Below, piece after piece: positions 20,334-64,000 of a DNA stretch of 64,000 nucleotides (position 1 is its first letter; each line of letters begins with the position of its first letter). The stretch comes from Yponomeuta sedellus (lineage: Eukaryota; Arthropoda; Insecta; Lepidoptera; Yponomeutidae): the NCBI GenBank assembly GCA_934045075.1, contig OW203722.1, forward strand, positions 1,829,001-1,893,000. Reading direction: 5' to 3'. A program made the translations under genes and the position numbers. The notes beneath the pieces are model-generated. The model made no database searches. It saw only the letters and a program-made list of their open reading frames with translations, and had not been told where the DNA came from.

Positions 20334-20492
20334 CGTGGCTTTATAATGTACTTTGTTTCAAAACAATAATCTTACAATTAGGTACCTCGAGCCCGGTCTC
20401 GCACGTGAGAAATAGACAAAGATTCGCGCCCGCTCTTGTTGCGGCGATAAGAGACCGTTTTTTTCCATAAAAATATAAAATACTTATTTATC

Positions 20493-20650
20493 AAAACCTA
20501 TTTAGAGGCTACAAATTCCACCCATGCCGGGACTCGAACCCGCGACCTCTGGCTATCCGTGCCAGCACTCTTCCAACTGAGTTAATGGGCGACTCACCGG
20601 CGTCAGTGAAATTTCGAACCTCGTTAGCACGGGTTAGGGCATTAAAAAGA
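20493..20650 (-). mobile_element. tRNA-like foldback element, copy 4
   Basis: Minus-strand body with the inverted-repeat end (CCTATTTAGAGGCT), the tRNA-like unit and its leader. On the far side the plus-oriented tail TTAGCACGGGTTAGGGCATT appears, so the tail motif can sit at the leader end as well as the usual end. Confidence 0.65.
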
Positions 20651-27095: not shown

Positions 27096-27219
27096 GGAAT
27101 AAATAAAATAATCTGTAAAACAATCTCAGCTTTTTTATTGCTCATAAATTTGTAACATAATTGACACATATTCTATAAATCCGCTGTGTTGAAGTTGACT
27201 TTTTATCTTCCTCGTGGAG

Positions 27220-27740
27220 GATCCTCTCCACTGTGGTGAAGTTGAAGTTTTGTGTTCAACAAGCAGGTTCCTCTCCACTGCGATGAGGTTGAAGTTTTAT
27301 GTTAACCGAGCAGGTTCCTCTCCACTGCGGTGAGGTTCAAGTTTTATGTTCAACAAGCAGGTTCCTCTCCACTGCGGTGAAGTTGAAGTTTTATGTTCAA
27401 CAAGCAGGTTCCTCTTCACTGCAGTGAAGTTGAAGTTTTATGTTCAATGAGCAGGTTCCTCTCTACTGCGGTGAAGTTGAAGTTTTATGTCCAACAAGCA
27501 GGTTCCTCTCCGCTGCGGTGAAGTTGAAGTTTTATGTCCAACAAGCAGGTTCCTCTTCACTGCAGTGAAGTTGAAGTTTTGTGTTCAACAAGCAGGTTCC
27601 TCTCCACTGCGATGAGGTTGAAGTTTTATGTTCCATGAGCAGGTTCCTCTCCACCGCGATGAAGTTGAGTTTTTGTCTTCTACGAGGAGGACCCTCTCCT
27701 CTGCAGTGAGTTGACTTTTTATGTTCCACAAGGAGGATTC
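27220..27740 (+). repeat. 47-bp minisatellite, left arm
   Basis: About 12 head-to-tail units with spacing of exactly 47 bp for most; each holds GAAGTTTTATGTTCAACAAG and CAGGTTCCTCTCCACTGC. The inverted counterpart at 28975-29660 has about 15 units. Confidence 0.9.
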
Positions 27741-28390
27741 TTTCCACTATGGTGAAGTTCCTTGTTCTCATTTTTTCACATCTTGTTTCAAAACAGCGAT
27801 TAATGTTCAAATTAAACCACACCGACTATGTACAGATATTAGTAATTTAATAAACAGACAGACGTCAAGAGAATTATTTTATCGACATTTGTTACGTTCC
27901 GTTCTGTACTCAAAGCGAATAAATAAACAAGAAGCGTGAACGTTTAGCTTCCTTTAAATATACGGTTCATTACAAACTAATAACTAAATAAAGAAACTTT
28001 GAACATTTTATTTACGAATACATAAACATTATTTTAGTTTCCTCTGTATATTTGACATAATTTACTAAGTTTTATTGTCACGTTTTTGTAACATGCGTAA
28101 AACGGAGTAAAAATCAACACTTGTATTTTTCTTGTCATAGAAAACATACTTTGATCATAGACAATCTGATTGCAGTTCTGAATCTCTACTTAAGCAGTGA
28201 TTGGCTGATCTCCACTCAAGAACTGTTTGAAAATAAAGGGAGTGCTTGAGCATCGATTCAGTGCTCAAGTAATGATTGGGCGATCTGAGATCAATCTGTG
28301 CTTGAGCATCGTTCTGTAATACCGGCCTAAGTATGACTTTAGTTTACTTTGCTAAGACTGCTCTAAGCGTGAACTTGGGATTCGTCTCTG

Positions 28391-30110
28391 AGGCCGGTAT
28401 TACAGAACGATGCTCAAGCACAGATTGATCTCAGATCGCCCAATCATTACTTGAGCGCTGAATCGATGCTCAAGCACTCCCTTTATTTTCAAACAGTTCT
28501 TGAGTAGAGATCAGCCAATCACTGCTTAAGTAGAGATTCAGAACTGCAATCAGATTGTCTATGATCAAAGTTTGTTTTCTATGACAAGAAAAATACAAGT
28601 GTTGATTTTTACTCCGTTTTACGCATGTTACAAAAACGTGACAATAAAACTTAGTAAATTATGTCAAATATACTGAGGAAACTAAAATAATGTTTATGTA
28701 TTCGTAAATAAAATGTTCAAAGTTTCTTTATTTAGTTATTAGTTTGTAATGAACCGTATATTTAAAGAAAGCAAAACGTTCACGCTTCTTGTTTATTTAT
28801 TCGCTTTGAGTACAGAACGGAACGTAACAAATGTCGATAAAATAATTCTCTTGACGTCTGTCTGTTTATTATATTACTAATATCTGTACATAGTCGGTGT
28901 GGTTTAATTTGAACATTAATTGCTGTATTGAAACAAGATGTGAAAAAATGAGAACAAGGAACTTCACCATAGTGGAAAGAATCCTCCTTGTGGAACATAA
29001 AAAGTCAACTCACTGCAGAGGAGAGGGTCCTCCTCGTAGAAGACAAAAACTCAACTTCATCGCGGTGGAGAGGAACCTGCTCATGGAACATAAAACTTCA
29101 ACTTCACCTTAGTGCACAGGAACCTGCTCGTTGGACATAAAACTTCAACTTCACCGCAGCGGAGAGGAACCTGCTTGTTGAACATAAAACTTCAACTTCA
29201 CTGCAGCGGAGAGGAACCTGCTTGTTGAACATAAAGCTTCACCTTCACCGCAGTAGAGAGGAACCTGCTCATTGAACATAAAACTTCAACTTCACTGCAG
29301 TGAAGAGGAACCTGCTTGTTGGACATAAAACTTCAACTTCACCGCAGCGGAGAGGAACCTGCTTGTTGGACATAAAACTTCAACTTCACCGCAGTAGAGA
29401 GGAACCTGCTCATTGAACATAAAACTTCAACTTCACTGCAGTGAAGAGGAACCTGCTTGTTGAACATAAAACTTCAACTTCACCGCAGTGGAGAGGAACC
29501 TGCTTGTTGAACATAAAACTTGAACCTCACCGCAGTGGAGAGGAACCTGCTCGGTTAACATAAAACTTCAACCTCATCGCAGTGGAGAGGAACCTGCTTG
29601 TTGAACACAAAACTTCAACTTCACCACAGTGGAGAGGATCCTCCACGAGGAAGATAAAAAGTCAACTTCAACACAGCGGATTTATAGAATATGTGTCAAT
29701 TATGTTACAAATTTATGAGCAATAAAAAAGCTGAGATTGTTTTACAGATTATTTTTAGGGGTCTTCAGCGTCCCTTAAATGCCTAAGGGGCTGCTGCTAT
29801 CATTAACTATTTCGTCATAGTAATCATGGTTTTCGAATATATGAATTTTGCAATAAACATTCCAAATTGAAAACTTTAATAATTGGCTGATCGACTCTCA
29901 AGCGTGGTTCCGACCACACTTGAGTAAATACAGATTTGATCTTTACTTAAGTAGAGATTGCTACCCAAGTATCGTTCTCGAATTAGCTATTACTCAGTTG
30001 AGTCGCGCTTGATGAATCTCGACTCAAGTAACGTTCTAAAATTAAATCCATACTCAAAACTAGTCTTAAGTAGAGATCGGCGCTTGAGTACGCTTCTGTA
30101 ATACTGGCCT
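28391..30110 (-). mobile_element. Right arm of giant inverted repeat (TIR element copy R)
   Basis: Mirror image of 26206-28327 across a 63-bp spacer (28328-28390). The 72-codon frame at 28998-28780 is nearly identical to the one in the left arm, showing little divergence. The minisatellite here has about 15 units. Confidence 0.85.
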
Positions 30111-43519: not shown

Positions 43520-44575
43520 AGGGGCAATCTTAGGCAGCAAAAAAGGTCCCGTGTCGGTGCCGTAAAACGCAGCGTTTCCGAGTTACGAACGAAAAATCAC
43601 TCGTAAATTTTATGTGTCGGGAAGCAGTAGCCATGTAGCCTTGGGGGTTGAAATTTTTTTACTTTATTTTTGGCCGGGGATGAGTCAGGTAGGTCAGGGA
43701 GCAAAAAAGGTCCCGTGACTCGGTGCCGTAAAACGCACCGTTTCCGAGTTACGAACGAAAAATGAAAAATCACTCGTCGTAAATTTTATGTCGGGAAGCA
43801 GTAGCCATGTAGCCTTGGGAGTTGAAATTTCTTTACTTTATTTTTGGCCGGGAATGAGTCAGGGAGGTCTTAGGGAGCAAAAAAGGTCCCGAGACTCGGT
43901 GCCGTAAAACGCACCGTTTCCGAGTTACGATCGAAAAATGAAAAATCACTCGTAAATTTTAATTTTTTTACTTTATTTTTGGCCGGTAAATGGGTCAGGG
44001 AGGTCTTAGGGAGCAAAAAAGGTTCCGTGACTCGGTGCCATAAAACGCACCGTTTCCGAGTTACGATCGAAAAACGAAAAATCACTCGTAAATTTTATGT
44101 GTCTGGAAGCAGTAGCCATGTAGCCTTGGGGGTTGAAATTTTTTTACTTTATTTTTGGCCGGGGATGAGTCAGGTAGGTCAGGGAGCAAAAAAGGTCCCG
44201 TGACTCGGTGCCGTAAAACGCACCGTTTCCGAGTTACGAACGAAAAACGAAAAATCACTCGTCGTAAATTTTATGTCGGGAAGCAGTAGCCATGTAGCCT
44301 TGGGGGTTGAAATTTTTTTACTTTATTTTTGGCCGGGAATGGGTCAGGGAGGTCTTAGGAAGCAAAAAAGGTCCCGTGACTCGGTGCCGTAAAACGCACC
44401 GTTTCCGAGTTACGAACGAAAAACGAAAAATCACTCTTCGTAAATTTTGATGTGTCGGGAAGCAGTAGCCATGTAGCCATGGGGGTTGAAATTTTTTTAC
44501 TTTATTTTTGGCCAGGAATGGGTCAGGGAGGTCTTAGGGAGCAAAAAAGGTCCCGTGACTCGGTGCGTAAAATTT
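43520..44575. repeat. ~170-bp tandem array, about six units
   Basis: Core CGTAAAACGCACCGTTTCCG occurs at about 43561, 43727, 43903, 44039, 44212 and 44388, with steps of 136-176 bp. Units also share GTAGCCATGTAGCCTTGGGG and GGGAGCAAAAAAGGTCCCGT. The last unit is cut off near 44570. It appears non-coding; the small open frames inside are by-products. Confidence 0.9.
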
Positions 44576-44929
44576 GGCAGACCTAGTAACATTCTTCATT
44601 ATATTGGATAAGAAATTCTTGTAACTTTTGAACTTTACTCACGGTACTTTTAATTAACCAGCTCTGGCAACACATTTTTTGTCAAAGCTGTCAAATAAAA
44701 TGGTAACCCACAGAACATTCTGTGATGGTATATAACAGTTTGTATGGAAAAAAGCGCGGGAAACGTTTAATTAGGCGGGCGTATTTTTTTGGTGAAGAAT
44801 TTCAAAATTATTTTAAAATAGGATTTTAAGATCAGTTCCTTATATTTTTGTAATATATTGTAGATTAGTGTTTCTTTTATAGTTTTTGTATATACTTTCT
44901 GTACTTCTGGTAAGTTTTATTGTTATTTT

Positions 44930-46531
44930 TTGACTGGTTCTATGGAGGAGCCGCCCGATCCGGGGGGCACAGTCCCCTCGGTCGGCGTTAATATAACTAT
45001 CCCTAGTATCACAATAAATAATGAATCCACTGGAATGGACACTGACGGATCCATTAGATCCGAAAAAAGAAAAAGGACAAGGGCGCAGCGCAAGGTCTGC
45101 AGACATTGTAATAAAAGAAGGAAGCACGGTTCAGGTTCAGATAAGGTTAATGTATGTGGATGTGATAGCGACGACAATAAAAAAACGACTATTTGTGCAA
45201 TGCCGGATTCACAAGAAGCTGCGTCCCATGTGGACGCAGGTTCTTCTGTGTCGCATGTTTCAGCAATACCCGTGACTCTGCCTCTTCAGTCTCTTCAGGT
45301 TGGCAGGACTCTGTACGAATCGACTGATGCCTCCCCGTACATAATCCATCTTCAAAAAAGTTCGACTGAGGATTTACCTTCTCCCACTCTCCACCCAGTA
45401 TCGTTTGGTCATTATATGAAAAGACGAGGATTTAAAAATGTTATTAACGGTAGTGTTAAACGACTGAGCAGAAGCAAATTGAGCATTTCATTTTCGGACT
45501 CTAATGACGCTAATTTGTTCTTGTTGGACCCTGATTTAACTAAAAATAATTTCAAGGCTTTCATCCCATCTTTTAACATCACAAGGATGGGAGTTGTCAG
45601 GGGAGTCCCAGCAGAGTGGACACCTGAAGAGGTTCTTGACAATATTTCTGTGCCAATTGGTTGTGGTAAAGTACTGAAAATTAGAAGGTTTAATTACAAA
45701 ATACATGGCCCAACCCCTACATGGAAACCCTCACAGACTGTTGTGTTAACATTTGATGGTCAGGTGTTGCCTAAAAGAGTATTTCTGTGCTACAATGCTC
45801 TACCTGTAGAGCTCTATTCATACCCTACGGTGCAATGTTTTAATTGTTGCCGCTTTGGCCATACGAAGACAAAGTGTAATTCTGCACCAAGGTGTTATAA
45901 GTGTGGCCAGAGTCACTCAGGTGACTCCTGTCATATAGAAAATGATGATGCAGTGTGTTTGTCATGTAGTGGAAGTCATTTCGCCACAAACAAGTCCTGT
46001 CCAGAATACGAACGGCAGACCCGGGTAAAACTTTATATGGCACAAAATTGTGTCTCATACTCGGAAGCGATTAAGTTACATCCTCCAGTGAATAAGTCCT
46101 ACAGTGATGTATTATCCACTGCACCAACATCTAATTCCTCTTCTCATTTCCTTCCATCGTCAATACCATCTCTTCAAAAAATTAACTCAAACTCACATAA
46201 AAAAACGGTCTTTCGTAAACCGTCTACCCCAAAAACGTCGTCTACAGGATACGATCGCGCCGTCCATAGATCTCTTACTTCTGATTATGATCCTCCATCT
46301 CCTTCAAATGGCTGTGCCCTACAAGATAAAGTCAAGGACTCCGGGGAAAACAATACGAATATATTAGAATTGATCTCAAGTTTAATTCAATTAATTTCAA
46401 AATCTTTCACTAACAGTAATAACTCATTACCGTCCAACGCTGCCTCTATTATCCAAATTATAAATTCTTTAACCAAAAATGGCCAACTTAGGCAAGATCC
46501 TGCAGTGGAATTGCCGAAGCATAACAAGTAA
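44930..46531 (+). CDS. LINE ORF1, gag-like nucleic-acid-binding protein
   Basis: 533 aa; packages element RNA and acts as a nucleic-acid chaperone in this class. The first ~130 residues are low-complexity and polar, with a basic run KRKRTRAQRK near residue 46. Residues ~155-300 form the domain before the knuckles (HYMKRRGFKNVINGSVKRLS, FIPSFNITRMGVVRGVPAEW). Three zinc knuckles follow at about residues 301-360: CFNCCRFGHTKTKC, CYKCGQSHSGDSC and CLSCSGSHFATNKSC. The tail is Ser/Asn-rich. The first in-frame ATG is not certain, but 44930 gives a sensible leader length. It overlaps ORF2 in a different frame. Confidence 0.9.
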   Translation: MTGSMEEPPDPGGTVPSVGVNITIPSITINNESTGMDTDGSIRSEKRKRTRAQRKVCRHCNKRRKHGSGSDKVNVCGCDSDDNKKTTICAMPDSQEAASHVDAGSSVSHVSAIPVTLPLQSLQVGRTLYESTDASPYIIHLQKSSTEDLPSPTLHPVSFGHYMKRRGFKNVINGSVKRLSRSKLSISFSDSNDANLFLLDPDLTKNNFKAFIPSFNITRMGVVRGVPAEWTPEEVLDNISVPIGCGKVLKIRRFNYKIHGPTPTWKPSQTVVLTFDGQVLPKRVFLCYNALPVELYSYPTVQCFNCCRFGHTKTKCNSAPRCYKCGQSHSGDSCHIENDDAVCLSCSGSHFATNKSCPEYERQTRVKLYMAQNCVSYSEAIKLHPPVNKSYSDVLSTAPTSNSSSHFLPSSIPSLQKINSNSHKKTVFRKPSTPKTSSTGYDRAVHRSLTSDYDPPSPSNGCALQDKVKDSGENNTNILELISSLIQLISKSFTNSNNSLPSNAASIIQIINSLTKNGQLRQDPAVELPKHNK

Positions 46532-49500
46532 AAAGTCTGACCTGATTTATTTACTTAATAAGTACAAACCCTCTATATTTACTCTTTCAGAGACATGGTT
46601 GAAGCCAGGGTTTTCTTTTAAAACCACTGGTTATGCCTGTCTTCGAGAAGACAGAGATGATGGGTATGGTGGAGTGGCCATTCTCATCAATAAGTCATTC
46701 TCATTTTCTTCTTATCCACTCCCTTCTCACAGCAACGACATTTCTATTGTTGCTGCTATTGTAAATAATATTTGTATAGTTGCTGTATATTTTTCTCGAC
46801 CATCTGTAAATATTTTAAGAGAAATTAGTAATATAATTAGTATTCTCCCAAAACCGTTTTTGGTGATGGGAGACTTTAACTGTCAACATCAAGCATGGGG
46901 TAGTTCTTTTACTTCTTGCTATGGGGAACAATTACTAGACATCATTCAGTCCAATAATCTTTGTATTTTAAATAATTGTTTACCAACCCGTCATACTAAG
47001 CCTGATGAAGGAATTAGTGCCCCTGATTTAACTTTTTGCTCTCCGAATCTTGCTTTGTCTTTAAATTGGTATCCTCTTCCCTCATCGTATGGCAGTGATC
47101 ATTTTCCTTTAGTTATTTCATTTCCAAATAGTAAACCTTGTGTTTCAACATTTAAACCCCGTATTAAGCATAGGTTAAGTAATGCAGATTGGACTTCTTT
47201 TAGGGAATGTGTGGAGCTAAAGGTCAGAGATTGTGAATCTCTATGTAGCTCAGATGCTGAGATGTTTGCTAAGCTTTTGATGGAGGCTGCTGATCAGACA
47301 TTTCCTCTTAAAAATGGTGCTTCTGGCAAAATCCCTTCTCCTCCTTGGTGGGATGCAGAGTGTTCAGAGGCTGTAAAACAGAGAAAGATAGCTGAAAAAA
47401 TGTATTGTGATGAAATGACACCAGAGAATTTTGACACTTATTTGGAAGTATCTCGAATTACTAAAAAACTTTTGAAACAGAAAAAATATGAAGGTTGGCA
47501 AAAATTTTGTACTTCTATTTCACCAAATACTCCTCCATCTGCTGTTTGGAAAAACATAAAAAGGTTTAGGTCAGCCTTCAATAATTCTAACACTCCCAAA
47601 ATGTCCCTTTCCCTAGCTGATGAGTTTATGGACCACCTAGCCCCTCCCTCTGTTCCAGAACTAAAATCTATTTCTCCCGGTTGTCATATTGCACATAGTC
47701 GGTCTGATTTAAACTCTCCTTTCACCTTAGAGGAATTAAAAGGGATCCTCTCTCATGCTAGGGATTCTGCACCAGGAGAAGATGGTATTCCTTATTCTTT
47801 CATAGTTAATCTTAGTGATTCTACTCTACTAACTTACCTAGAATTAATTAACTCCATTGTTATTTCAGGTAATATTCCTCTCTCCTGGAAATCCCAAACC
47901 ATTATTCCAATTTTAAAATCTAATAAGCCTTCTGCTGACCCTTCGTCTTACAGACCCATTGCTCTATCCTCTGTTCTAGTTAAAATTGCTGAATACCTTG
48001 TCAAAATTCGTCTTGAGTGGTTCATTGAGAGCAACAATCTTTTATCTCCTTCCCAGTATGGGTTTAGAAAGGGGAGAGGTACTATTGACAGTCTAAGTGT
48101 CTTCACAACTGATATTCGTCTAGCTTTCTCTAATAATAATTCAGTTCTTGCAGCATTTCTTGATATCCGTGCTGCCTACGACAGTGTTCTTGTGTCAGTA
48201 CTGGAACAAAAACTTCATTTATTAAATGTTCCCAACATCCTTGTAAATTTTATTGTAAATATCCTTTCAGAAAGGATCATTAATGTGTATATAGATGATA
48301 ATAAAATATCTAGATTAGTTTGGAGAGGTTTACCACAAGGCTCGGTTCTCTCTCCCTTATTGTACAATATATATACTTACGATCTAGACTCTTCTCTAGG
48401 TAGTTCCGTAGATGTATTGCAATATGCAGATGATCTTCTTATTTATACCACAGGTCACTCAATAGATTCAATGTCTTCATCTTTAACTGCTTCCCTTTCA
48501 CTACTTCAGGGCTGGCTATCCACTAATGGTCTTGACCTTTCTGTTGACAAAAGTACTGTAGTCTTGTTTTCAAGACTGAGAAAACGACCAGACTTTTGTG
48601 TTCAGTATAATTCCACTCCTATCCCTGTAAAAACACAAGTAAAATTCTTAGGAGTTATTTTAGACAGTCATCTTTCAGGACTCCCTCACTGTGAATACAT
48701 TGCAGCCAAGTGTGACCGCTTGATAAATATTATCAGATGCCTCTCTGGGGTTTGGTGGGGTGCTCATCCTTTTTCATTGAGGCTGCTCTACAATGCTTTA
48801 ATCAGAAGTGTTCTTGATTATGGAACCTTTTTGTTGGAGCCTGGTAGTGCTGCTGGTTTAAAGAAATTGGATGCAGTGCAGTCCAAGGCCTTGAGAATTA
48901 TCTTAGGGGCCATGAAATCTAGTCCTATTAATTGTTTACAAGCAGAGTGTGGAGAGCCACCTCTCAAGTTAAGACGTCAATACCTTTCTGATAGATTCTT
49001 CGGTCGATGTTTGCAGCTCTCTGATCACCCTTTGCATGGCAAATTACAGCGTCTTTCAGAGTTGGTTGTGTCATCCAAATATTGGTCTCACAGAGGTATC
49101 CCTTGTCTAGTTCAAAGTTTCTTGAAGTTTAACGCCATTAAAGCTCCATGCCATAATTCTAACATGCTTCCTATTTTTAATTGTCCATATAATTCATTAG
49201 TTCAAGTTCCTAACGTCTGTCTTGATTTAGGTATTTCAAAATATGACGTATGTCAAAATAGTGATTTCAATAACCTTTTAAATGACCAATTCCAGGGGTA
49301 CCACACCATCTTTACAGACGCTTCAAAACACACTAAAACAAATAGTTGTGTAGGCGTAGGTGTGTTTCATTCTCAATTTAAAATAGTTCAAAAAATTAGA
49401 CTTCCCCCTGAATCTTCGGTATTTACTGGAGAATGCTTTGGACTTCTAAAGGCAGTGGAATATGTACTTTTGATGGGTCTGCGAAGTACACTGGTACTGT

Positions 49501-50174
49501 CAGATTCCTTAAGCTCCCTTCAGGCTCTAGTAAAATTTCCATTTTTCCGTCTAAATCCGCCAATAATTTTTGAGATACGTAAATTATTACTCCAATGCTC
49601 TGAGAGAGGCTTCATAGTTAGTTTCGGATGGGTCCCTTCCCATTCCGGTATAGTTGGAAATGAAAAAGCAGATAAACTTGCCAATGAGGCTGTGGAGTGT
49701 GGGGATCTATTTCCATTTCAAAATTATTCTACCGATCTCACCACTCTGCCCAGGGTTTATCTCCGGGAGTCCTGGGATAAAATCTGGGCAGAGGAATGCA
49801 CAAAAGGCATGCATTATCGCAGAGTACAACCCGTTATTTTGTCAAAGCCCTGGTTTTGTCGCGCCGATGCCAAGTTCAGTAAGAAGGTTACTTCAACCTT
49901 GATTCGCTTGCGTTTGGGCCATACTTCAACTCCGGCCCACCTTGCTAAGCTTGGCATTACGCAGAGTCCTGCCTGTACTTGTGGGGCTGAGGTGGCAGAC
50001 ATAAATCATTTGCTATTTTCCTGTCCTGATTTAGATCGTTCTTCCTTTCTTTCTTCCCTAACTTCCCTCGGTGTTTCTTTCCCTTCCTGTGCATCCTGCC
50101 TATTATATAATTTCGATGTAAATATTTATAAATGTATTGCTAAGTATATAAGTAAAAATGATATAAAAATTTAG
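46479..50174 (+). CDS. LINE ORF2: APE endonuclease, reverse transcriptase, RNase H
   Basis: 1231 aa. The N-terminal apurinic-type endonuclease has ILQWNCRSITSKKSDL, SETW (about 38-41), VMGDFNCQHQAWGS and GSDHFPLV. The reverse transcriptase carries SYRPIALSS, YGFRKGRGT, AFLDIRAAYDSV, RGLPQGSVLSPLLYNIY and the catalytic QYADD near residue 648. An RNase H domain follows with all acidic positions visible: FTDAS (about 945), TGECFG, LSDS and SHSGIVGNEKADKLANEA. The C-terminus has a Cys/His cluster, CTCGAEVADINHLLFSC. No stops or frameshifts are seen. RNase H separates it from Jockey proper and points to the I-group. Confidence 0.93.
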   Translation: MANLGKILQWNCRSITSKKSDLIYLLNKYKPSIFTLSETWLKPGFSFKTTGYACLREDRDDGYGGVAILINKSFSFSSYPLPSHSNDISIVAAIVNNICIVAVYFSRPSVNILREISNIISILPKPFLVMGDFNCQHQAWGSSFTSCYGEQLLDIIQSNNLCILNNCLPTRHTKPDEGISAPDLTFCSPNLALSLNWYPLPSSYGSDHFPLVISFPNSKPCVSTFKPRIKHRLSNADWTSFRECVELKVRDCESLCSSDAEMFAKLLMEAADQTFPLKNGASGKIPSPPWWDAECSEAVKQRKIAEKMYCDEMTPENFDTYLEVSRITKKLLKQKKYEGWQKFCTSISPNTPPSAVWKNIKRFRSAFNNSNTPKMSLSLADEFMDHLAPPSVPELKSISPGCHIAHSRSDLNSPFTLEELKGILSHARDSAPGEDGIPYSFIVNLSDSTLLTYLELINSIVISGNIPLSWKSQTIIPILKSNKPSADPSSYRPIALSSVLVKIAEYLVKIRLEWFIESNNLLSPSQYGFRKGRGTIDSLSVFTTDIRLAFSNNNSVLAAFLDIRAAYDSVLVSVLEQKLHLLNVPNILVNFIVNILSERIINVYIDDNKISRLVWRGLPQGSVLSPLLYNIYTYDLDSSLGSSVDVLQYADDLLIYTTGHSIDSMSSSLTASLSLLQGWLSTNGLDLSVDKSTVVLFSRLRKRPDFCVQYNSTPIPVKTQVKFLGVILDSHLSGLPHCEYIAAKCDRLINIIRCLSGVWWGAHPFSLRLLYNALIRSVLDYGTFLLEPGSAAGLKKLDAVQSKALRIILGAMKSSPINCLQAECGEPPLKLRRQYLSDRFFGRCLQLSDHPLHGKLQRLSELVVSSKYWSHRGIPCLVQSFLKFNAIKAPCHNSNMLPIFNCPYNSLVQVPNVCLDLGISKYDVCQNSDFNNLLNDQFQGYHTIFTDASKHTKTNSCVGVGVFHSQFKIVQKIRLPPESSVFTGECFGLLKAVEYVLLMGLRSTLVLSDSLSSLQALVKFPFFRLNPPIIFEIRKLLLQCSERGFIVSFGWVPSHSGIVGNEKADKLANEAVECGDLFPFQNYSTDLTTLPRVYLRESWDKIWAEECTKGMHYRRVQPVILSKPWFCRADAKFSKKVTSTLIRLRLGHTSTPAHLAKLGITQSPACTCGAEVADINHLLFSCPDLDRSSFLSSLTSLGVSFPSCASCLLYNFDVNIYKCIAKYISKNDIKI

Positions 50175-50517: not shown

Positions 50518-53500
50518 ATGTACGCGGTCGAAAAGAAGTACGAGATTGAAATGAAGTTGAAAAAGGTATGAAAAACAGCGAAAACACTAACTCAGTCTCT
50601 AAATTCTCCAATCAGAAAATTTTATTTCCATGAAAAATTAAAATTTTCACCTAAATCCTATTCTAATCAAGTACATCCGCCTTACACAACAAGCTATGCT
50701 AACGCTAAAAACGTTCAAAATTGACACAGGAGATGTACAACGTTCAAGAGCTAAAAGCGGCTGCGGGGCGGAGTTCCGCCCTTGCTGGGGACGTGTGTAA
50801 TGTGCTGGGCGCCTGCGAACAACGGCTGCAGCAGCTGGAGACTGCTGTGCTGCCACTATATGGGGACACTGCCAGACTGCAGCATATTTATGAGAGTGAG
50901 TTCCTTTGACACACAATTATTGGAATATCTATGATTAGATATCTGTGGGTTCCCCTTCAACAATAAGTGGTAGTCACACTGAATCCCAAAGTATGTGTGG
51001 AGTATCCCTTTTGGGATGAGCACTTGAAATTGTGGGATGGGCTTATCATTATCAATTAAACTGAATATGACAAGTGTAGTTTATGAAGATCTGTTATTAC
51101 TGTCATTCTACCTGTTAATGGTGCTTAGTTACTGGCATTAGGAATGGTGCAACTGATCAATTGAGGGTTAAGATTATTGGATGATAAAAACTGCATTGTA
51201 GTCCTTGTAATGAATTAACCTTTAATGAATTAATTTATCGCCAGACATGGAACGCACTGTGAAATCCCTGGAACATGTGATTAATTTCTACATGATGTCA
51301 CGGGAGTTTGCCGACCTCATCCAGTCAGGGCCACACACTTCTACGCCTGACTCACTCACTGGTTATCTAGAGGTAGGTTTGTTCACTCTGCTACTATGTG
51401 ACTGGGTTTATAATTGTTAATTTTGTGAAATAAAAAACTTAAAGTTGTGCTTTGTGAAATTTTGTCCTTTTTGTTTCAGTCTTTGGATAAACTAGCCGAA
51501 GCCCAAACTTATTTCAACAAGAACAACCCGCAAAGTGTTGAATTGGAGAATATTGTAAGTTCATTTTTTACATTATACTTTAGGTGTCCTATTGACACAC
51601 CACAGGATCTACGCTCTGAGTTTACCCTGTCCTATGTTGTATTTATGTGAATTGTTCATGTTTTCTATGTATGTACATATTAGTAGTATGCCTTTTCTTT
51701 CCTGTGATGTGTTAATTTGTTCCAATAAATGTCTTTCTTTCTTCTTTCTATGTGCTAGTTTTGGTTGTCTGACTGTTTAACCAATTTTTTTTATGAATGT
51801 ATTCCAATACTTCACCATCAGTAATGCCTGTAGTTAGTTAGTAAGTAACAGCTTTTGTTTCTTCTATTGTTACTGTATAAACTTACAAGACTTTTTGTTC
51901 CATTTAGTCAGCTGTTAGTCCAAAAACTTTTGTTTGGTTGCATAATTACATTATAAACCCCGTACACTACATTTCTTGCATATACTTCGCATTTGGTAAA
52001 ATATTACTAACAAAAATATTTCAAACAAGTCCCAGGTGACTTATTTGGGGCTGGTCTTCGAAAAGAATTTCACATTTACTGAACATGTTAGAGCTGTAGG
52101 CGAAAAAGCTCGCTTGAATTTTTACTCCTTAGCTAGGATCTCTAAATCCACATGGGGTTTACGTTTTCCAGTCCTGAGAACTATCTACAAAGCCACTTAC
52201 GTGACTAGTGTGTGCTACGCTGCTCCTGTTTGGGTAGATAGGACTACCCTGGTGTCGGTTAGACACAAAATACTGCAAACCCAGCGCATGGCACTAATAT
52301 TTCTTTGTAAAGCTTACCGCACAGTCAGCACTGATGCGTTACATGTTTTAGCTGGCGTGTGGCCGATTGATCTGGAACTGCAAAGACGTGCGAGTAACTA
52401 CTTTCAACTCCGCGGCATGTGCTGGGAGGATTTTGGTCTTGGAGATAGGCAACGTACCGGTTTTCTTTTTGACTTCGAATCGGTCTCTATAACTCTTCTT
52501 TCAGAATGGCAGAAAAGATGGGCCGCTAGTACCAAAGGCAGGCATCTGTTTCAGTTCTTTCCATCAGTACTAGATAGACTAAAAGCATGCTGGATGGAAA
52601 TTGACCACCAGGTATCGCAGTTCCTCACCGGTCATGGCAACTTTAAGGGTAAATTGCACAGTTTGCAACTGGTGGAGAGTCCGTACTGCGAATGCTCGGA
52701 GACTGAACAGACGGCACACCATATCCTTTGGGAGTGTCCATTGTGGGATGAGAGGCGTTACACTATGCTTTCACATATTTACTGCAACCTGAATGGCAGG
52801 GCTGGTCCTGTTTATTATGAGGACCTTGTAGCGAATAAAAAAAATTTCATGGCATTTAAAAAATTCTGTCACCATTACTATTGGCACTCTACGATAAAAT
52901 AACTTAACTGTAAATATAACCGTATTTTAAAGTTTTCAAGTGCTTTTAGCATACTATGTTTCCCTTCCTTTTTTCATACTATTACACTGTTCTTTTATTA
53001 ATTTGTTATGTACCTCTAGAACCTTTGTTAGTCATACTATCGCAAATTGGCATGTATTTTATGTTTTTGATCCTATGTATTAGGAGTTAAAACATGGAAA
53101 TAAATAAATAAAAAAAAAAAAAAAATATTACTAATTTTAGAACCAGCTATACAACACTGGAGTGCAGAAGCTGGAAGGCGCATTCGAGGAGCTCCTAAGT
53201 CGAAATACGCGGCCTCTCTCCCCTACCACAATCATGGATATGATTGCTTTGGAAGAAGGTATCTGTCACAAATATTAGCAAACTAGTCTGAGTAAAACAT
53301 TGTTTTTTTTTTCTCTTTAGGTCTGACCACGACTTTGGTGAAAAAAGTATGAGTAGAGTACCTACTCTGTAGACTGTTTGGAGATTGGAGATTAATAAAT
53401 TGCAAAGGACTATACAAGAGTAAAAATTACTTGAGATAAAAAATTGCAATTCAGATAACATTAAGCTCTCCTATTTGCAACATTTTTATGCAATAAAGAA

Positions 53501-56500
53501 TTTTAATAATAATAATAACATTTTTGAAATGGAGCCTCAGCATTAATGCTGTTTTTCATTCTTAACTGGTATTTCGTTATTTTTTTATAGATAAAAACAA
53601 TTAGCCGCGAAATTAGATAATTAATACATAAGATACAATGCACCTCCCAAACCTATAAAATTGTACTACACAGAGAGTCATTCCAGTCAATTCCACAGCG
53701 AGTAAGACAAGCAATAAAAGTTACACAAATACATTTTGAACTGTGGCAACCGAGTTAGAAAATCCATATTTTTTTACTCAATTTTACATAAGATATTTGT
53801 TCTTGGTCGATCGTGCACTTAGACATTTTGACTCCAGACACGAGCGTGGAAAGCGTAAGCGTGAGCGCAAGCGGCAGCGCATCGAGCGGGGGCGCGTCGC
53901 TGGAGGCCATGCGGGCCGCCGCGGCCTGGCTCAGCGGCGCGGGCCGGCCGCCGGCCGCAGCGCTGCAGCGACTGCGAGCGCCCGCCGCCAAGACCTCGCT
54001 CACGGCCTTCCGGGACTACCTCAGGACGCGCTCCGTCGCCGCATCGCCGCTTATGGTGAGCGCTTTAGGGCCTATCTGAAGACATAGAGACGATTATGAG
54101 TTCTTTGGAAACTATTTGAGGATGTGCGGTGAGCGCTTTCGGGCTCAGATCTCGCTCACGACTGCCTCAGAACGCGCTCCGTCGCCGCGTCGTCGCTTAT
54201 GGTGAGCGCTGTAGGGACTACTTACCTTAGGACACAGAGATGAGCACTTTAGAAACAACTTGAGGACGCAGTGAGCGCTTACTGCCTTAGATCTCGCTCA
54301 CGCCTTCCCGGGACTACCTCAGGACGCGTCTCGTCGCCGCGTCGCCGCTTATGGTGAGCGCTTTAGGGACTACTTACCATTACCATAAGACACAGAGATG
54401 AGTACTTCAGAAACTACTTGAGGACCTGGTTGGTGAGCGTTTATGGCCTTAGATCTCGCTCACGGCGTTTCGGAACTACCTCAGGACGCGTCTCGTCGCC
54501 GCGTCGCCGCTTATGGTGAGCGCTGTAGGGACTACTTACCTACCTTAGGACACAGAGATGAGTACCTTAGAAACTACTTGACCGGAGAGCGCTTTTGAGC
54601 TCAGGTCTCGCTCACGGCCTTTGCGAACTACAAAACTCGCTCCGTGGCCGCGTCGCCGCTTATGGTGAGTGTTTTTAGGCTCAAAACTAGCCGAGACTAC
54701 CTGAGGACGTGCTCCGTCACCTGGTCACCGCTCATGGTGAGCACTTGTAGACTCAATACTCGCTCACGGTCTTCTGAGACTACCTGAAGATGCGGTATGT
54801 CGCCGCTTATGGTGAGCGCTTTCGGGTTCATTACTCGCCCACGGCCTTCAGGGACTACGGTCATTGGTTTCATTGCTGTTACAGTAGGCGTTCTCAAAAC
54901 TCTCTTACTGTCTACTGGGGCTAACTGTAAACGCGGTTCGTCGCCGCTTACGGTGCTTTAGGGACTACTTGAGGACACAGAACGATGATTAGTACTTTAG
55001 AAACTAATTACCTGAAGACGCGGTTAGCCCGAAAGCGCCTCAGATCTCGGTCACGGCCTTCAGGGACCACTTCAGGACGCGGTTTGTTGCTCCGTCGCCG
55101 CTTATAGTGAGCGCTTTAGAAACTTAATGAGGACTTCCTTCTGTTTCATCGCTCAAGTCTTTACCCAGATGTTTGTTATTTTCAGAGAGCCAAGAATAAC
55201 CTGAACCGGTCAGATAGCACCAAGAAAACGAGTAAAATTCAAAAAGTGTGAGTATGAATCCTTTTACCCTTTACCTTTTCTGGGTGTTTCAGAAATATGC
55301 TTAATAGAAATAAAGAACTTTTATTACTAAAAACCTATTTAGAGGCTAAAAATAATACAGAGAATAGTGTAAAGAGGTTCGAAATTTCACTGATGCCGGT
55401 GAGTCGCCCATTGGCTCAATTGGTAGAGCGCTGGCACGGATAGCCAGAGGTTGCGGGTTCGAATCCCGGCATGGGTGAAATTTTTAGCCTCTAAATAGGT
55501 TTTTAAATTTGTCCTTAGCACGGGTTAGTGCATTAAAAATAAAAATAGTATAATTTTATTATTAAACCAATTATGTAACATGGAACATGTAAGTCAGACG
55601 ATACATTACATTTATTTTAATACATTTTGGTGTTTACTCTAGCGTATGTATGATATTTTTCTATATTTCGAAGTCGGAGTCGATACAAAGACTAACCTTC
55701 TAATATTTAGACCGATTATTCATCTTCTATATAATATAAAAATGAATCGCTGAATGTGTTGGTAAGCGCAAATCTCGCGAGCAGCTGAACCGATTTTGCT
55801 AATTCTTTTTTTAGAATATTCCTTGAAGTACGAGGATGGTTCTTACGGAGAGAAAATTAATAAAAAATTAAAGAATCGACTGTTAGGCGGTACGAAGTTC
55901 GCTGGGTCAGCTAGTTAATAATAATAACATCAACACAACACAATTAAAATATATATTTTTATCAAATTATCTTCTTTTCAGCTTGCGCGGTAACAAGATA
56001 GTGCAAAAGGCGACGCAAACATTAGAGCAATCGACAGGGCTCGCGATCGGATCGCGCCGTGGCATGAACGATTCTTGTGAGTGAAATATAGAATTCTACC
56101 TACTTTGTTTAGTACGAGTATATTTAGAACCGGCCGACGTGTTTATTTCATGTAAAATTAAGATATCTTTCTGACGTAGCATTCTTCTTGACAACAGACT
56201 CCATGGATAACATTTTCTAATAACTTTCAACTGCCGTTTAACTGGAAAAGAAAATTAATTATATCAGAATCCTATGGATTGAATTCACCCAGTGAGCCAC
56301 AAAAAGGAATTAAATTAAAGCCTGATATGCTTCCGTTAATTCATCAACAAGCCTTTCTAAGCACGCTAAAATTATTAAAGTGATTCGGGGTGCTAACTCG
56401 CGCCACCAATGGAAAAAAAATCATTACTGGTTCATGATCATGTCCCCACTGCTGGGGCACGGGTCTCATCCTGCATCGCAGGAAGGTTAGGCCATACTCC

Positions 56501-59500
56501 ACCACGGGGGCCAAGTCCAGGTTGGTGGCTTACTGTTAGAAGTTATCAAGCCGCCCATAAGGACCGACGGCTTTACGTGCCTTGCGAAGCACGGAAGCGC
56601 TCGGAAAAATGCCACTAGCGGTACTTACTGGTTTTACACTAAGTTTTTGACATGAGAAATCTTCACAACTGTGACAACTATTTTTAGAATCAATAATCAA
56701 GGACTTTAACCACGAATAGCAACCCGAAGCGCTAATAAAGTTAATTCGGTAATAAAGTGGTCATAAGCTGAGCAATATGCTGTGTGGTGTCGGCCTAGAG
56801 CATAGCACCAACCCAATTCTTCCCGCGGGTGTCGTAAAAGGCGACTAAGGGACACAAACCGGGGGGTGGGCAGCAGCGCCCTCTGCAGTACAATTTCACG
56901 CATGCCCAGCGTGGGGATTATGGGCATTACCCCCTATGATAGCACAACGTGACGCTCTTTAGGGGAGGGCTATGCCCAGCAGTGGACTAGTATAGCCTGA
57001 CGACGACAACGAAGCTGAGCAACTTTGTCTCCCTATTTAGATACGGAGGAGCCGGGCGGCGAGATATTAGACGAGTACGAGGCTGAAGCCACCGGCGAGC
57101 TTGCGGCCTGTCTTTGCCGCATCGCGCGGGCCGAACAAAGGTACTTCGTGTGCTGGTACAATGATATGCTTTCTTACAGTGCCACTACAAAGTGTCCTTA
57201 TTTACTTTCTGTGCTGTTACAAAGATATGATTACATACTTACTTCCAGTGCCACTACAAAGGTACCCTTAATATTTTTGTGACGCTACAAATGTACTCTT
57301 ATGTACTTCCTGTGCTGGTACAAAGGTACGGTTCCAGTGCCGCGACATATTTACCCATATCAATAAAATGTGAAAATTACTTTGCTAAATTCCGCCAAAA
57401 ATCACAGAAGCACCTTACAAGTTCACTTGTGAGCCTGAGAATGCTTCGTGTTAAAGGCGAAACGCGTCGCGTATTTTCTCACACAAGTATTGGTGCCGGT
57501 GGTGGTGTGTTCGTATCTTGCTTCTGCTAGAAAATGTGGGAGGGAGGGCGGTGCATTAACATGGTGCGTGTGGGATTTTTTGCGGAATTGAGCAACGTAA
57601 TTTTAAAAACCTATTTAGAGGCTAAAAATTCCATCCATGCCGGGATTCGAACCCGTGACCTCTGGTTAACCGTACCAGCGCTCTCCCAACTTAGCTAATG
57701 TAACGTTGTACATAACGTACATAAAATAAATATATATCAATGTAATTTATTCAGTATTCCATACAATAAAGTTACTTATATTTACTGACTTCTTGTGGCG
57801 CTACAAAGATAACCTTCGTTACTTCTTGAAGGCTCCCATACTTTCTGTGAAACTGCAAAGGTACCCTTACTTACTTCTTGTGGCATTAAAGCCCAGCGTG
57901 GGTGGGTGGCTTGTTTAGCGTTTTCTTCCATTTCCCTCCAGCGACCTTCGTTTCGATACTATAGCGTGTTAATCGTTATACCAACGGGCAGTAAGAATTT
58001 TGTTTTCATCATTGCAGATACCTTCTGGGTTTAGTACCTTTACCCCGCCTGCCGCAGCTGCTGATGGCTGTTCTGAAAGACTGCTTCGCCATACTGGCGG
58101 CGGATGTGGAGGTAAGCTTGCGTTCACTTAATACTCAATAATTTATTGCATTCGACGAGTATATACAGATGATATTTATCAGAATAAAATATAGATCTTT
58201 GTGGACCCTATAGGGCACCAAACATTATAAATTATAGGAGGCTTTTTTATGATTTATTCGTATGTTCCGTGCGCTTGCGTTTCGTTCTCAGCTTTTACGT
58301 CTGGCTGTTTCTATTGTGCAGTAGACAGTACATTAATGTATTCATTGCCTGATTTCATTGATTCTTATCTTTGGTTATCTCAATGACAGTCCCATATTAT
58401 AAATTTTGTCAATTTGATCACGAGGGTCGTGATTCTCGGCAGTTGGTGGTAAAAATTACTTTTAACATGACCGAGAGAAGAGGATACGATCTTTTTGCAT
58501 CGGTGACGCTTAGAATATGTTACGGGGTCTTCTTAATTATCGGTTTTATTTATTTAATGACAGGGTAATTTGCAGCGAAATCAGTAACATAAAAAATTTA
58601 ACATTTACGAAAACCTACAGATTTCTACGAAATTACTTGTATTTTTTTATTATCTTTGGGCAGAGATTCGAGTATTGTACGTTTTAAAGTTTTTTATATC
58701 ATTAATACAAACAAAAGAAAAGTTTCAAATAAATAACTTTAACTTATGAAAAATTATTGACCAGAAGTGTTCTATAAAAATAACGCTAAAAAAAAGAAGT
58801 TAGTCTCATTGTGTGGCGTGTGTGCGTGTGTGTGCATACGTGTGTTTCTTTGTGCGCGTGAATGTATGTGGTGTGTATGTGGGTGTATGTATGTTTACTG
58901 TATATTGTGCAGCCCCACGACCCGAGTCCTGGGGTCAGCCGATGGCCGGACCGACGGTGGCATCGGCACGACACCCAGTTCCCATACAACGCCGCAGTTA
59001 ACGTAGGAGACGAGATGCCGCGCCGGAGCCACCGGCATCCGATGTGCGACCTTCCAATTTTACGGTGGCACCGGCACGACACCCAGTTCCCATACAAAGC
59101 CGCAGTTAACGTAGGAGACGAGATGCCGCGCCGGAGCCACCGGCGTCCGATGTGCGACCTTCGCATTGTACGTCCGCAGAAAGCGTGCGCGCGCTGGCGC
59201 CGCGCCTGCGCCCGCTGCGGCGGCCGCGCCGGCGGCGGCTGGGCGCTGCTGGCGCGCCTGCAACGGCTGCAGCCGGACGTCGAGAGGGCGCTCGCGCCCG
59301 CGCCGCCCGCGCCCTACGCCGCCATCGTCACCAGCTGCCAGCTGCAGGTAAGTGCGCCCGCGCCTTACGTCGAGAGCGTAACTCGCATCCAGGTGCAAGT
59401 GAGTGCGCCCGCGCCTTACGCCCCGCTCCTGACTGGTTGCCAGCTGCAGGTGAGTGTCCCGCGCCCTGCGCCGGGATCGTCGCTAGCTGCCAGCCGCGCG

Positions 59501-62500
59501 TGAACACCTGACAGGTGCAGGTGAGTGTCTCGCGCCTTATGCCGCGCTTGTCTCTAGCTGCCAGCTGCAGGTAAGTGCCCCGCGCCCTACGCCGCGATTG
59601 TGACCAGCTGCCGGCTGCAGGTTAATGCGCCCGCGCCTTACGCCGCGCTTGTGACTAGGGCATCCAATCCCGGTATTCCGAGATCTCGTTATTCCGGGAT
59701 CCCGCATCATTTTTCAGTCCCGCACAATGCGGGATTACATGCGCGGGATCCCGCGGGATTTGCGGGACTGATCTGCAGCAAAGAAACACCCTCCTACCAA
59801 ATCAATTCTATTGACTCCATCATAAAAAAAAGATGACTTTGTATGAATCTGGAGGTACACTAGGCAAATATTTATCTTTGTCATACAATGCACTTAAATG
59901 CATTCCGCCCACTAGTGTAGAAGCCGAGAGGGCTTTTTCAGCTGCCGGATATTTAGCTTCACATATTCGCAGCAGCCTGGCAGATGATACATTAGATACA
60001 TTATGTATCTTACGAAAACATTTCCAAAAAAAAAAATATGTCATTATAATCGTACTTCTTGCTTGATTTGATAATTAAAACTAATAAAGCTATGTTGATT
60101 TTTATTTCTTTTGTATCCTTCAATCCTTACACTATATTTACTAATATACAATTTAATGTACCACATACACACTTGCGGGATCCCGCCAATACCGAGATCC
60201 CGCGGGATTGACAAAATTTCAATCCCGCAAATACCGAGATCACAAAAATGCTGCGGGATTGGATGCCTTACTTGTGACCAGCTGCCGGCTGCAGGTGACT
60301 GCGGCGGGCGCTGCTGGCACGCCTACTGCGGGTTGTACCTCTTAGCAGCAGAAGTTATCTATTTGTGTAGTCCTTTAGGGGCTGGTTTAGCTCCCTAGCG
60401 GCTGGTATGGTTCCCGTTGGCAGTCGTAGCTCCTTAGCAGCTGAATTAGCTCCCTAGTGGCTTGTGTAGCTACTAGCCCAAGTAAAGTCTTTAGTAGCAA
60501 GATTAGAGCTCCTTCGCGATAGATTAGATTTTGATGTGACCTTGGGCGACAAGTGTAGCAAATAGCGGCTACTGTAGCCCCTATCAGCAAGTGTATGTAC
60601 CTCCTAAGTGACAGTTATAACTCACAAACGACTGATCTAGCCTTTTAGCAATAAGTGTAGCTGCTAACGGGGCGGTTGTAACCCCTATTGGCAAGGGTCG
60701 GTATATATTCTAGCGGCAGGTATATTCCTTTGCGACAGGTGAAGCCGCAACAAGAAGTAGCAACAGTCGTAGCGACAAACGTACCCTCTAAATTCTCAGT
60801 GTACGGAAGGAAAGAGAGGAAAGCTATTCGACTCTCGATCTACCGCGCTGTAGATTTTTTTTCCGAGCGCTTCCATACTTCGCAAGGCACGTTAAGCTGT
60901 CGGTGCCGGCTGTCATGTAATGGCAGTCGTTCGGCGACGTCAGAGGCCTTATGGGCGGCGCGATAACTTCTGACAGTGAATCTCGTCACAATCCTTAAAA
61001 AAATTGGATTTGGTCCCCGTGGTGGAATTTGGCCCAACTTTCCTGCGATGCAGGAAGAGACCCGTGCAGATGGGACGTACGATATCAATCCCTTGTATGT
61101 CCCCACTTCTGGGGCACGGGTCTCTTCGTGCAGCGAAGGAAGGTTAGGCCATACTTCACCACGGGAGTCCGGGTTGGTGGAGGATAGAGGATAGGGTTGA
61201 TATCAAAAGAACTAAAACATGCAAAATTAAACCTAACCGAGCTTATTTTTCCTAATCAGCAGCGCCCCCTGCAGTACTATTCCACCAAACTGCGATCCCC
61301 AACCCGCATGCCCAGCGTGTGAATTATGGGCATTACCCCCCCCCCCCCCCCCCAATGATGGCACGATCTTGCGCTATAGCGCACATCAGGGGAGGGCTAT
61401 GTCCAGCAGTGGACTAATAATAGCCTGAAGAAGAGGTAGAAGAGCTAAATGTTTAATCGATTAAGGCTCCAGTACGTATGGTCCCTTACCCCGCCCGTTT
61501 GGCCGCAGTGCGTCCGCTCGCTGGAGGAGTGGGTGGAGGGAGCGCGGGGCGCGGGGGGCGCGGGCCCGCCCGACGGGACCGTGCACCAGCTGGCCGCCGC
61601 CGCGCTGGCCTTCCTGCACCAGCTGGCGGAACACGTGCACACGCTGGGTGAGTGGGGGCGGACACGTGACACGCTGGGTGAGTGGGGGCGGACACGTGCA
61701 CACGCTGGGTGAGTGGGGGCGGACACGTGACACGCTGGGTGAGTGGGGGCGGACACGTGCACACGCTGGGTGAGTGGGGGCGGACACGTGACACGCTGGG
61801 TGAGTGGGGGCGGACACGTGCACACGCTGGGTGAGTGGGGGCGGACACGTGACACGCTGGGTGAGTGGGGGCGGACACGTGACACGCTGGGTGAGTGGGG
61901 GCGGACACGTGCACACGCTGGGTGAGTGGGGGCGGACACGTGACACGCTGGGTGAGTGGGGGCGGACACGTGACACGCTGGGTGAGTGGGGGCGGACACG
62001 TGACACGCTGGGTGAGTGGGGGCGGACACGTGACACGCTGGGTGAGTGGGGGCGGACACGTGCACACGCTGGGTGAGTGGGGGCGGACACGTGCACACGC
62101 TGGGTCAGTCTAGTAATGGTCACCAGCTGGCTAAGCATGTCCATAATTATGCTGAGTGAACTTAGTGTTGTTCAATCAGTGGCTGACGAAAATGATGGTG
62201 TATCTCCGCAGGCCCGGCGCTGGCGGCGGAGCCCGCCTACATCCGCGCCGCCAGCCAGATACTGGGGGCGCAGGACAGAGACGCCGTCATGCTGTCTATT
62301 TACATGCGTGAGTTATAAATAAAGTATACATTGATAAACGTGGCCTGAAAGTTTAATAGATAATTAAATCACGTACATTTTCAACACCTACATTGATGTT
62401 TCTACATCGAGTTTATGTTACATTTATATTTGTTATAAACGTTGTTTATGAAATTATATAGCAATACCACTGGCTAACTGTGGGGGAAAACTTTGTGGGC

Positions 62501-63062: not shown

Positions 63063-63944
63063 GTAAGTAACCAAAAATGCTTTTATACCTTTGTATCGCC
63101 GTAAACGATCAAATTAAACGTAAATAATGAGATAACAAACGCAGAACTTATAAAATGATCTACCCAGAATATTTTAAAATTGAAGGGGGTGGTTAAGTGA
63201 AAACGCCAATTGAGTAGCAGAAGTAAATCCTTGTATTGATTCGTTTTACATATAACTGTACATAGGTAGGTTTTTCCTATCGACATATGTTTTGACAGAC
63301 ATTGCTGTCCCTATAGATACTGTGAGAAATCACTAGAGGTCCTGCAGTTAAGCTGGTCGCGTCTAGTGTCCCTAACCTGACGTTACTGGTTAGACCAGCA
63401 GTAAAGCCGGTCCTGCCCAGCGCAGTCTTCTAGTTGAGCCCTAGTCCAGACGTTACTAGATAGACCAGCAGTTAAGCCTGTCTTGTCCAGCGCGGTCGCT
63501 AGCTAAGTGATCTTCATGATGCGGTGCGGCTCCTTATATTGGGCTCTGGCGGCCGTTGCTTGTTGGTGGGGCGCAGCGGGAGGGCGACGAGCGAGAACGA
63601 TAGTCTGTGTGCGAGCGAGAAAGTATTCGGGCCCATGCGCAAATGGTTCTCTTGTTACAAAATAAAAAATTCAATATTTTTGAAGGATACACAAAAGTAC
63701 AAGATAAATGAAAACAATCGTCTGCGTAGCTCGAGTAGCGCACTCTCGAATGGTTAATTGATGGTAATGGAATCTATTCGATTGCTATAGACTAGTATTT
63801 CTTAATGATTCGCGATACTCATACATAGTTAGTTATACATTAAACGGGTCTAATTGCGATTATTTATTAGGTAAAACTTAACGTAAACGAAGTGTGTGTT
63901 GGAAAAATTTCTGCGAAAAATTTAAAAATTTAAAGTGGCTACCC
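63063..63944. other. Exo70 intron 14 start, no gene seen
   Basis: Contains a loose duplication at about 63340-63510 (GTTACTGGTTAGACCAGCAG and GTTACTAGATAGACCAGCAG). No exon-like block recognised. Confidence 0.45.
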
Positions 63945-64000
63945 ACAATAATTGACTGTACTCGCTACTTCAGTGAACCCGAGACCACGGCAACTGTAAC
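63945..64000 (+). repeat. Penelope-type tail fragment at the window edge
   Basis: CAATAATTGACTGTACTCGC and GAGACCACGGCAACTGTAAC match the piece at 15235-15293. The remainder lies outside the window. Confidence 0.55.

Follow-up and report, generated by a model that had tools for sequence, protein, structure and literature searches.

Why should three introns of one gene each open with tandem copies of the exon end that they follow? The question is raised by a lepidopteran Exo70 (EXOC7) gene in a 64,000-nt stretch of the genome of Yponomeuta sedellus (assembly GCA_934045075.1, contig OW203722.1, positions 1,829,001 to 1,893,000, forward strand), which at its full length is referred to as the window and whose first letter is position 1 in all coordinates given here. 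A preliminary description of this DNA had reported that the 3' end and donor of the preceding exon are repeated in tandem at the start of introns 6, 11 and 12, and all three arrays were confirmed by Tandem Repeats Finder (TRF) and by donor scores (Table 1). Our preferred explanation, to which we assign a probability of roughly 0.74, is that the arrays are minisatellites of the mirage type described in lancelets, which were duplicated across the 5' splice site and are tolerated since the first donor gives a normal protein.

Tandem arrays at Exo70 donor sites

The draft Exo70 protein was matched by 62 proteins at E ≤0.001 (7992 candidates scored), and the best named matches were Exo70/EXOC7 proteins of species that we take, from their names, to be moths and butterflies. 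Matches to the Pfam families Exo70_C and Exo70_N were found in two of the five exon-derived pieces tested, and one solved structure (2pft, 'Exocytosis Protein') was matched weakly (E 0.0015). The exon model was built from an alignment of 22 of the 62 relatives and from tblastn searches with five of those. As many as 128 splice combinations passed the open-frame filter, and the first one listed, which is collinear with the relatives, was adopted. In the resulting model of 14 exons, with which the earlier exon numbers agree, the joined frame is open, collinear with lepidopteran relatives and uses the first donor of each array. Judging from this modelled frame, the first donors are presumably also those used in vivo.

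Table 1 Positions in the window of the Exo70 exons followed by repeats, of the arrays and of the inserted element. Slashes mark exon-intron borders; TIRs, terminal inverted repeats.
Feature	Position	Strand	Basis
Exo70 exon 6, exon-proximal donor ATG/GTGAGC	53838..54055	+	gene model, collinear with relatives
Array 1, tandem copies of the final ~65 nt of exon 6 with donor and intron head	53991..55124	+	TRF, copies, alignment
Exo70 exon 9, donor CAAAG/GTACTT	57041..57140	+	gene model
Weak fourth case, decayed ~32-bp repeat TACAAAG/GTACCCTTA...	57134..57869	+	TRF, donor score
Exo70 exon 11, donor CAG/GTAAGT	59180..59347	+	gene model
Array 2, left part, ~51-bp units made up of the final 44 nt of exon 11 with donor and intron head	59304..59655	+	TRF, copies
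615-bp hAT-like element within a unit of array 2	59656..60270	.	TIRs, target-site duplication
Array 2, right part, remainder of the split unit past the element	60271..60310	+	repeat comparison
Exo70 exon 12, donor CTGG/GTGAGT	61509..61647	+	gene model
Array 3, 16 units of 30/31 bp including the exon's own	61625..62109	+	TRF, unit list

Array 1 was delimited by TRF at 53991-54581 with a period of 162 bp and, under looser settings, at 53991-55124 with a period of 152 bp and 7.5 copies. Extending to ~55124, it occupies almost all of the 1130-bp intron 6. Successive donors are spaced by 146, 152, 162 and 149 bp near the exon (146-162 bp), by 72 and 75 bp in the middle of the array, and by 141 and 154 bp at its far end. 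The intronic copies contain deletions and are 80-92% identical to the exon 6 tail over the aligned parts, and the GT of the donor is retained in all of the aligned intronic copies (8/8). Copies close to the exon are the most exon-like, a trend that is less clear in longer alignments.

For array 2, which has about eight copies at ~51 bp, TRF gave a period of 50/51 bp (59304-59658); one further copy lies past a 615-bp insert. Over their aligned parts, the units share 72-89% identity with the unit of the exon, and GT is kept in the seven aligned copies that cover the donor. Here the copies closest to exon 11 are the least like the exon, and the two arrays therefore have no polarity in common.

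The insert in array 2 carries terminal inverted repeats (TARGGCATCCAATCCCG) and is flanked by an 8-bp target-site duplication (CTTGTGAC); we presume it to be a hAT element. It also contains a reading-frame fragment that resembles what we take to be the C-terminus of a hAT transposase. Its empty site aligns to a neighbouring array unit. Because joining the flanks restores an array unit, array 2 is older than the insertion. This history also bears on whether the arrays could be an assembly artefact of collapsed or duplicated reads, which has a negligible probability: tandem arrays are prone to misassembly, and one mirage was reported as aberrantly assembled in a genome draft (PMC3087553), but the copies of arrays 1 and 2 are diverged and array 2 contains a transposon with its target-site duplication. 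An error in copy number is conceivable for array 3 only.

In array 3, near-identical copies of a unit of 23 exonic nt plus donor (GTGAGTGG) follow one another with a strict alternation of 30 and 31 bp across the first seven steps. The donor reads GTGAGT in 15 of the 16 units, including the exon's own, and GTCAGT in the final unit. The exon copy is unlike all 15 intronic copies, and the last copy also departs from the homogenised core. Array 3, and only this array, thus shows concerted evolution from which the edge units are excluded, and a deviating exon copy is what is expected if edge units escape homogenisation. The arrays share one architecture but differ in sequence, period and age, as had been proposed, with array 3 near-identical and arrays 1 and 2 diverged to the degrees given above.

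A decayed repeat at exon 9 forms a weak fourth case. Its unit is AT-rich (GC 0.34) and includes just ~6 exonic nt, and the repeat is interrupted by an insert with a part resembling a short interspersed nuclear element (SINE; ~57340-57795, approximate limits). Donors 6, 11 and 12 are the strict cases, while exon 9 is followed by a donor-containing array almost without an exonic part.

At each junction, a piece of 60 nt of exon and 20 nt of intron was scored against the next 400 bp. Donor scores were 124 (exon 6), 94 (exon 11), 79 (exon 12) and 35 (exon 9); the remaining 10 of the 14 donors scored 14-18. The mirror-image score was 14-21 at 14 positions, 13 of them acceptors and the fourteenth the start codon at 50518. 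When each of the 13 introns was compared with 500 first-order Markov resamples, the strict donors reached z values of 50.6, 23.7 and 14.2 and exon 9 reached 8.1, with z ≤1.4 at the other Exo70 donors. With exonic bases only (300 resamples), z was 32.4, 13.9 and 6.7 for exons 6, 11 and 12, respectively, and -0.7 for exon 9. Arrays of other kinds are common in the window, and for this reason 2.8-6.8% of the positions sampled across its whole length reached the scores of these four donors.

Three further minisatellites lie off the junctions in the same gene (58954-59172, 60365-60477 and 63362-63502), which accords with the preferred explanation and would also fit a coincidence, i.e., GC-rich minisatellites without any special relation to exon borders, three of which met donors of one gene by chance. 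Under random placement of the seven arrays counted in Exo70 introns, however, only 0.42-0.49 donor-spanning arrays are expected; the probability of at least three is ~0.006-0.008 and that of at least four ~0.0003-0.0005, depending on the unit length assumed for array 1. This count leaves aside weak repeats of 46 bp (66% matches) and 9 bp (60%) within exon 11, rows that were AT-rich or short with low scores, rows from beyond the gene, internal repeats of the hAT-like element and extra pieces of the 20-bp array. The P values are post hoc, the gene having been chosen for the pattern, and exon 9 counts only loosely. Nevertheless, exon sequence recurs in donor register at three donors, as the exon-only z values attest, and we regard coincidence as distinctly unlikely.

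The retained GT dinucleotides could also point to donor redundancy, as the preliminary description had considered, with spare donors selected as back-ups. The donor 9-mer of array 1 has an identity of 0.917 compared with a unit mean of 0.754, and many downstream donors match the real donor in U1 pairing energy. However, the 9-mers are not significantly better conserved, since 14% (array 1) and 51% (array 2) of windows are as good or better. Moreover, use of 26 of the 30 downstream donors in the three arrays would lead to a premature stop; three are in frame and open (59399, 59450 and 61678), and one gives a frameshift without a stop in the modelled exons. Mostly stop-giving downstream donors and unremarkable 9-mer conservation argue against selected redundancy and for tolerated copies. 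Selection for redundancy is thus unsupported and, in our estimate, very improbable.

Relation to mirages and human boundary repeats

The earlier statement that no such system had been described was incorrect, as lancelet mirages and the variable number tandem repeats (VNTRs) of human CBS and ABCA7 are precedents (PMC3087553, PMC3902484, PMC2630376, PMC5954066). The Exo70 arrays belong to this already described, rarely noticed kind of repeat, the mirages. No report of such repeats in insects was found in a search of open-licence literature that was barely directed at insects.

Mirages are tandem repeats across exon-intron boundaries in the lancelet genes Adh, TnC and PGBD5 and the globin genes BflGb6 and BflGb9. 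Their units measure 10-72 bp in Adh3 and 150-160 bp in the globins, and splice signals are present in many repeats (PMC3087553, PMC3902484). The authors report normal splicing and unstable length (PMC3087553). Like the Exo70 arrays, mirages are minisatellite-like, span boundaries, contain splice signals and have units at the cluster edge that escape homogenisation, and the lancelet unit sizes bracket those of Exo70. At donors 6, 11 and 12, the copies include sequence from both the exon and the intron side of a real junction, as in mirages, whereas at donor 9 the exonic share is the short one described above; splice signals in many repeats were found in arrays 1 and 3. In contrast to the Exo70 arrays, which occur on the donor side only, in several introns and in one sequence, the lancelet repeats occur at both 5' and 3' boundaries and show haplotype and somatic variation. 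This two-sided occurrence is a property of the lancelet set and lies outside the definition of mirages; recurrence was seen at 0/13 acceptors of Exo70 and 0/4 acceptors of GNMT, another gene in the window.

The human CBS VNTR of 31 bp, designated c.1444_1467+7(16_21) (PMC2630376), resembles array 3 strikingly. By its name it has a unit of 24 exonic nt plus 7 intronic nt, repeated 16-21 times, compared with 23 exonic nt plus donor, 30/31 bp and 16 copies in array 3. It differs in being a single array that is polymorphic in people, and the likeness is one of architecture, with no relation in sequence claimed. In the C-rich 25-bp VNTR of ABCA7, the first GT of the array is the exon 18 donor. Canonical splicing takes place at this first donor, and one of three alternative events retains a single unit (PMC5954066). 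Unlike the Exo70 arrays, the ABCA7 array is said to begin at the GT, without copies of the exon tail, and longer arrays are associated with more exon 19 skipping (PMC5954066).

Two other systems are more distant. Human internal tandem repeats at exon-intron boundaries are likewise minisatellites (mean unit 30 bp) that alter introns, but they vary among paralogues in segmental duplications and are tied to new introns (PMC2812944). Tandem duplication of proto-splice sites also copies exon sequence together with splice signals, but creates new introns within coding exons (PMC2891723), whereas the Exo70 copies are intronic and leave the reading frame unchanged.

Origin of the arrays and the donor-side asymmetry

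According to the preferred explanation, a segment straddling the 5' splice site (exon tail, GT and intron head) would have been duplicated in tandem. The founding event may have been replication slippage or unequal exchange, either of which is plausible as a common cause of the three arrays. The copies would then have expanded and been homogenised as minisatellites, in events that were separate for each donor and differed in time. They could persist if everything past the exon-proximal donor is intronic and the first donor yields a normal mRNA, while the same duplication inside an exon would alter the protein. The founding duplication or the expansion is probably favoured by GC-rich exon ends. 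Exons 11, 12 and 6 are the three GC-richest of the 14, consistent with the earlier remark that the source exons are GC-rich, and exons 6, 9, 11 and 12 occupy the top four ranks for GC content over the final 60 nt.

Several observations weigh against the tolerated minisatellites proposed here. Junction recurrence was found at three strict and one weak of 14 donors vs 0/13 Exo70 acceptors, where no z exceeded 2.0, an asymmetry not expected from tolerance acting as the sole filter. GC content is no lower at the 5' ends of exons 11, 12 and 13, where such repeats are absent, and going by the post hoc P values there may be some donor-side bias. The lancelet repeats, as mentioned, are two-sided. In addition, when seven pieces from the four donor arrays were folded as DNA, z ranged from -0.93 to 1.42 and none beat its shuffles.

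The asymmetry would be accounted for by an amplification process specific to the donor side, in which transcription, R-loops or polymerase pausing at GC-rich exon ends, for example, leads to duplication of 5' splice-site segments. The four recurrent donors follow the four exon 3' ends highest in GC while GC-rich 5' ends lack repeats, and in two other moths the end of yet another exon, exon 10, recurs within the predicted Exo70 protein. On the other hand, the sample is small, post hoc and limited to one gene, arrays 1 and 2 share no polarity, the exon 9 unit is AT-rich, mirages of lancelets lie on both sides (PMC3087553), and single-strand folding gave no signal. Taken together, we consider such a process unlikely.

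Secondary structure as a trigger was rejected, as all eight donor-related pieces (seven from the arrays and one from GNMT) remained within |z| 1.5. The folding sample comprised 10 pieces, one or two per array; the two non-donor pieces were the 108-bp unit (z -0.24) and the 20-bp array (z -2.04).

These two pieces derive from the off-junction minisatellites. At 58954-59172, two copies (94%) of the 108-bp unit lie just upstream of the exon 11 acceptor and stop short of the exon. The 20-bp tandem repeat at 60365-60477, possibly continuing in decayed form to ~60780, is in the interior of intron 11 and is apparently unrelated to the exon. The third, at 63362-63502, consists of a 70-bp unit present twice downstream of exon 14.

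If confirmed, the Exo70 arrays would extend mirage-type repeats from lancelets and humans to insects, with several occurrences in one conserved gene. They would also form a natural age series (fresh, middle-aged and decayed) for studying intron lengthening, which would bear on how the spliceosome chooses the first among many equal donors and would allow the duplication rates of donor and acceptor segments to be compared.

Other species, GNMT and further repeats in the window

Arrays of this kind may mislead gene prediction, and repeated exon pieces are present in two moth Exo70 protein models. In a search for exact 7-residue words with at least four different residues, internal repeats were detected in 2 of the 62 Exo70 relatives, Operophtera brumata (P0047) and Ostrinia nubilalis (P0001), and no such repeats occurred among the 120 listed relatives of GNMT, from a total of 2111. 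By eye, the exon 10 end occurs at least five times in P0047, whole or in part, with some of these copies followed by what appears to be translated intron and a copy in a shifted frame, and three times in P0001. These repeats are possibly array copies absorbed by gene prediction; both sequences are gene predictions rather than DNA, and the repeat units may be whole exons. Rather improbable, in our assessment, is the broader proposal that in lepidopteran genes donors at GC-rich exon ends, but not acceptors, are repeatedly amplified into the intron that follows, which would lengthen introns from the 5' end, with Exo70 as a hot spot (exons 6, 9, 11 and 12 here, exon 10 in Operophtera and Ostrinia).

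GNMT showed recurrence at one of its four donors. The end of exon 3 with the donor and ~22 intronic nt (15146-15226) recurs at 15492-15581 with 88% identity (donor score 129), and the second copy has an extra small duplication at GTAAGT. The two copies exactly flank a 265-bp piece, parts of which recur at 63793-64000 and near 3000. We did not count this case as a mirage, since the flanked piece is transposon-like and a long target-site duplication is at least as likely. GNMT exon 3 was placed by tblastn at 14944-15204, and the borders used in the GNMT junction scoring are a few bases off.

Several other features of the window were noted. Long reading frames at 44864-50171 and 52000-52899 appeared by eye to be similar to a long interspersed nuclear element just upstream of the Exo70 start and to a reverse-transcriptase fragment in intron 4, respectively. 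A tRNA-derived repeat at 55407-55510, which we interpret as a SINE, passes the Rfam tRNA threshold at 55407-55475, and similar pieces lie at 57599-57700, 15868-15967, 16185-16286, 19803-19881, 19878-19944 and 20482-20587. A satellite-like array with periods of 136-309 bp extends over 43528-44572, and two 47-bp arrays in opposite orientation (27190-27759 and 28960-29670) may be the arms of a single repeat element.

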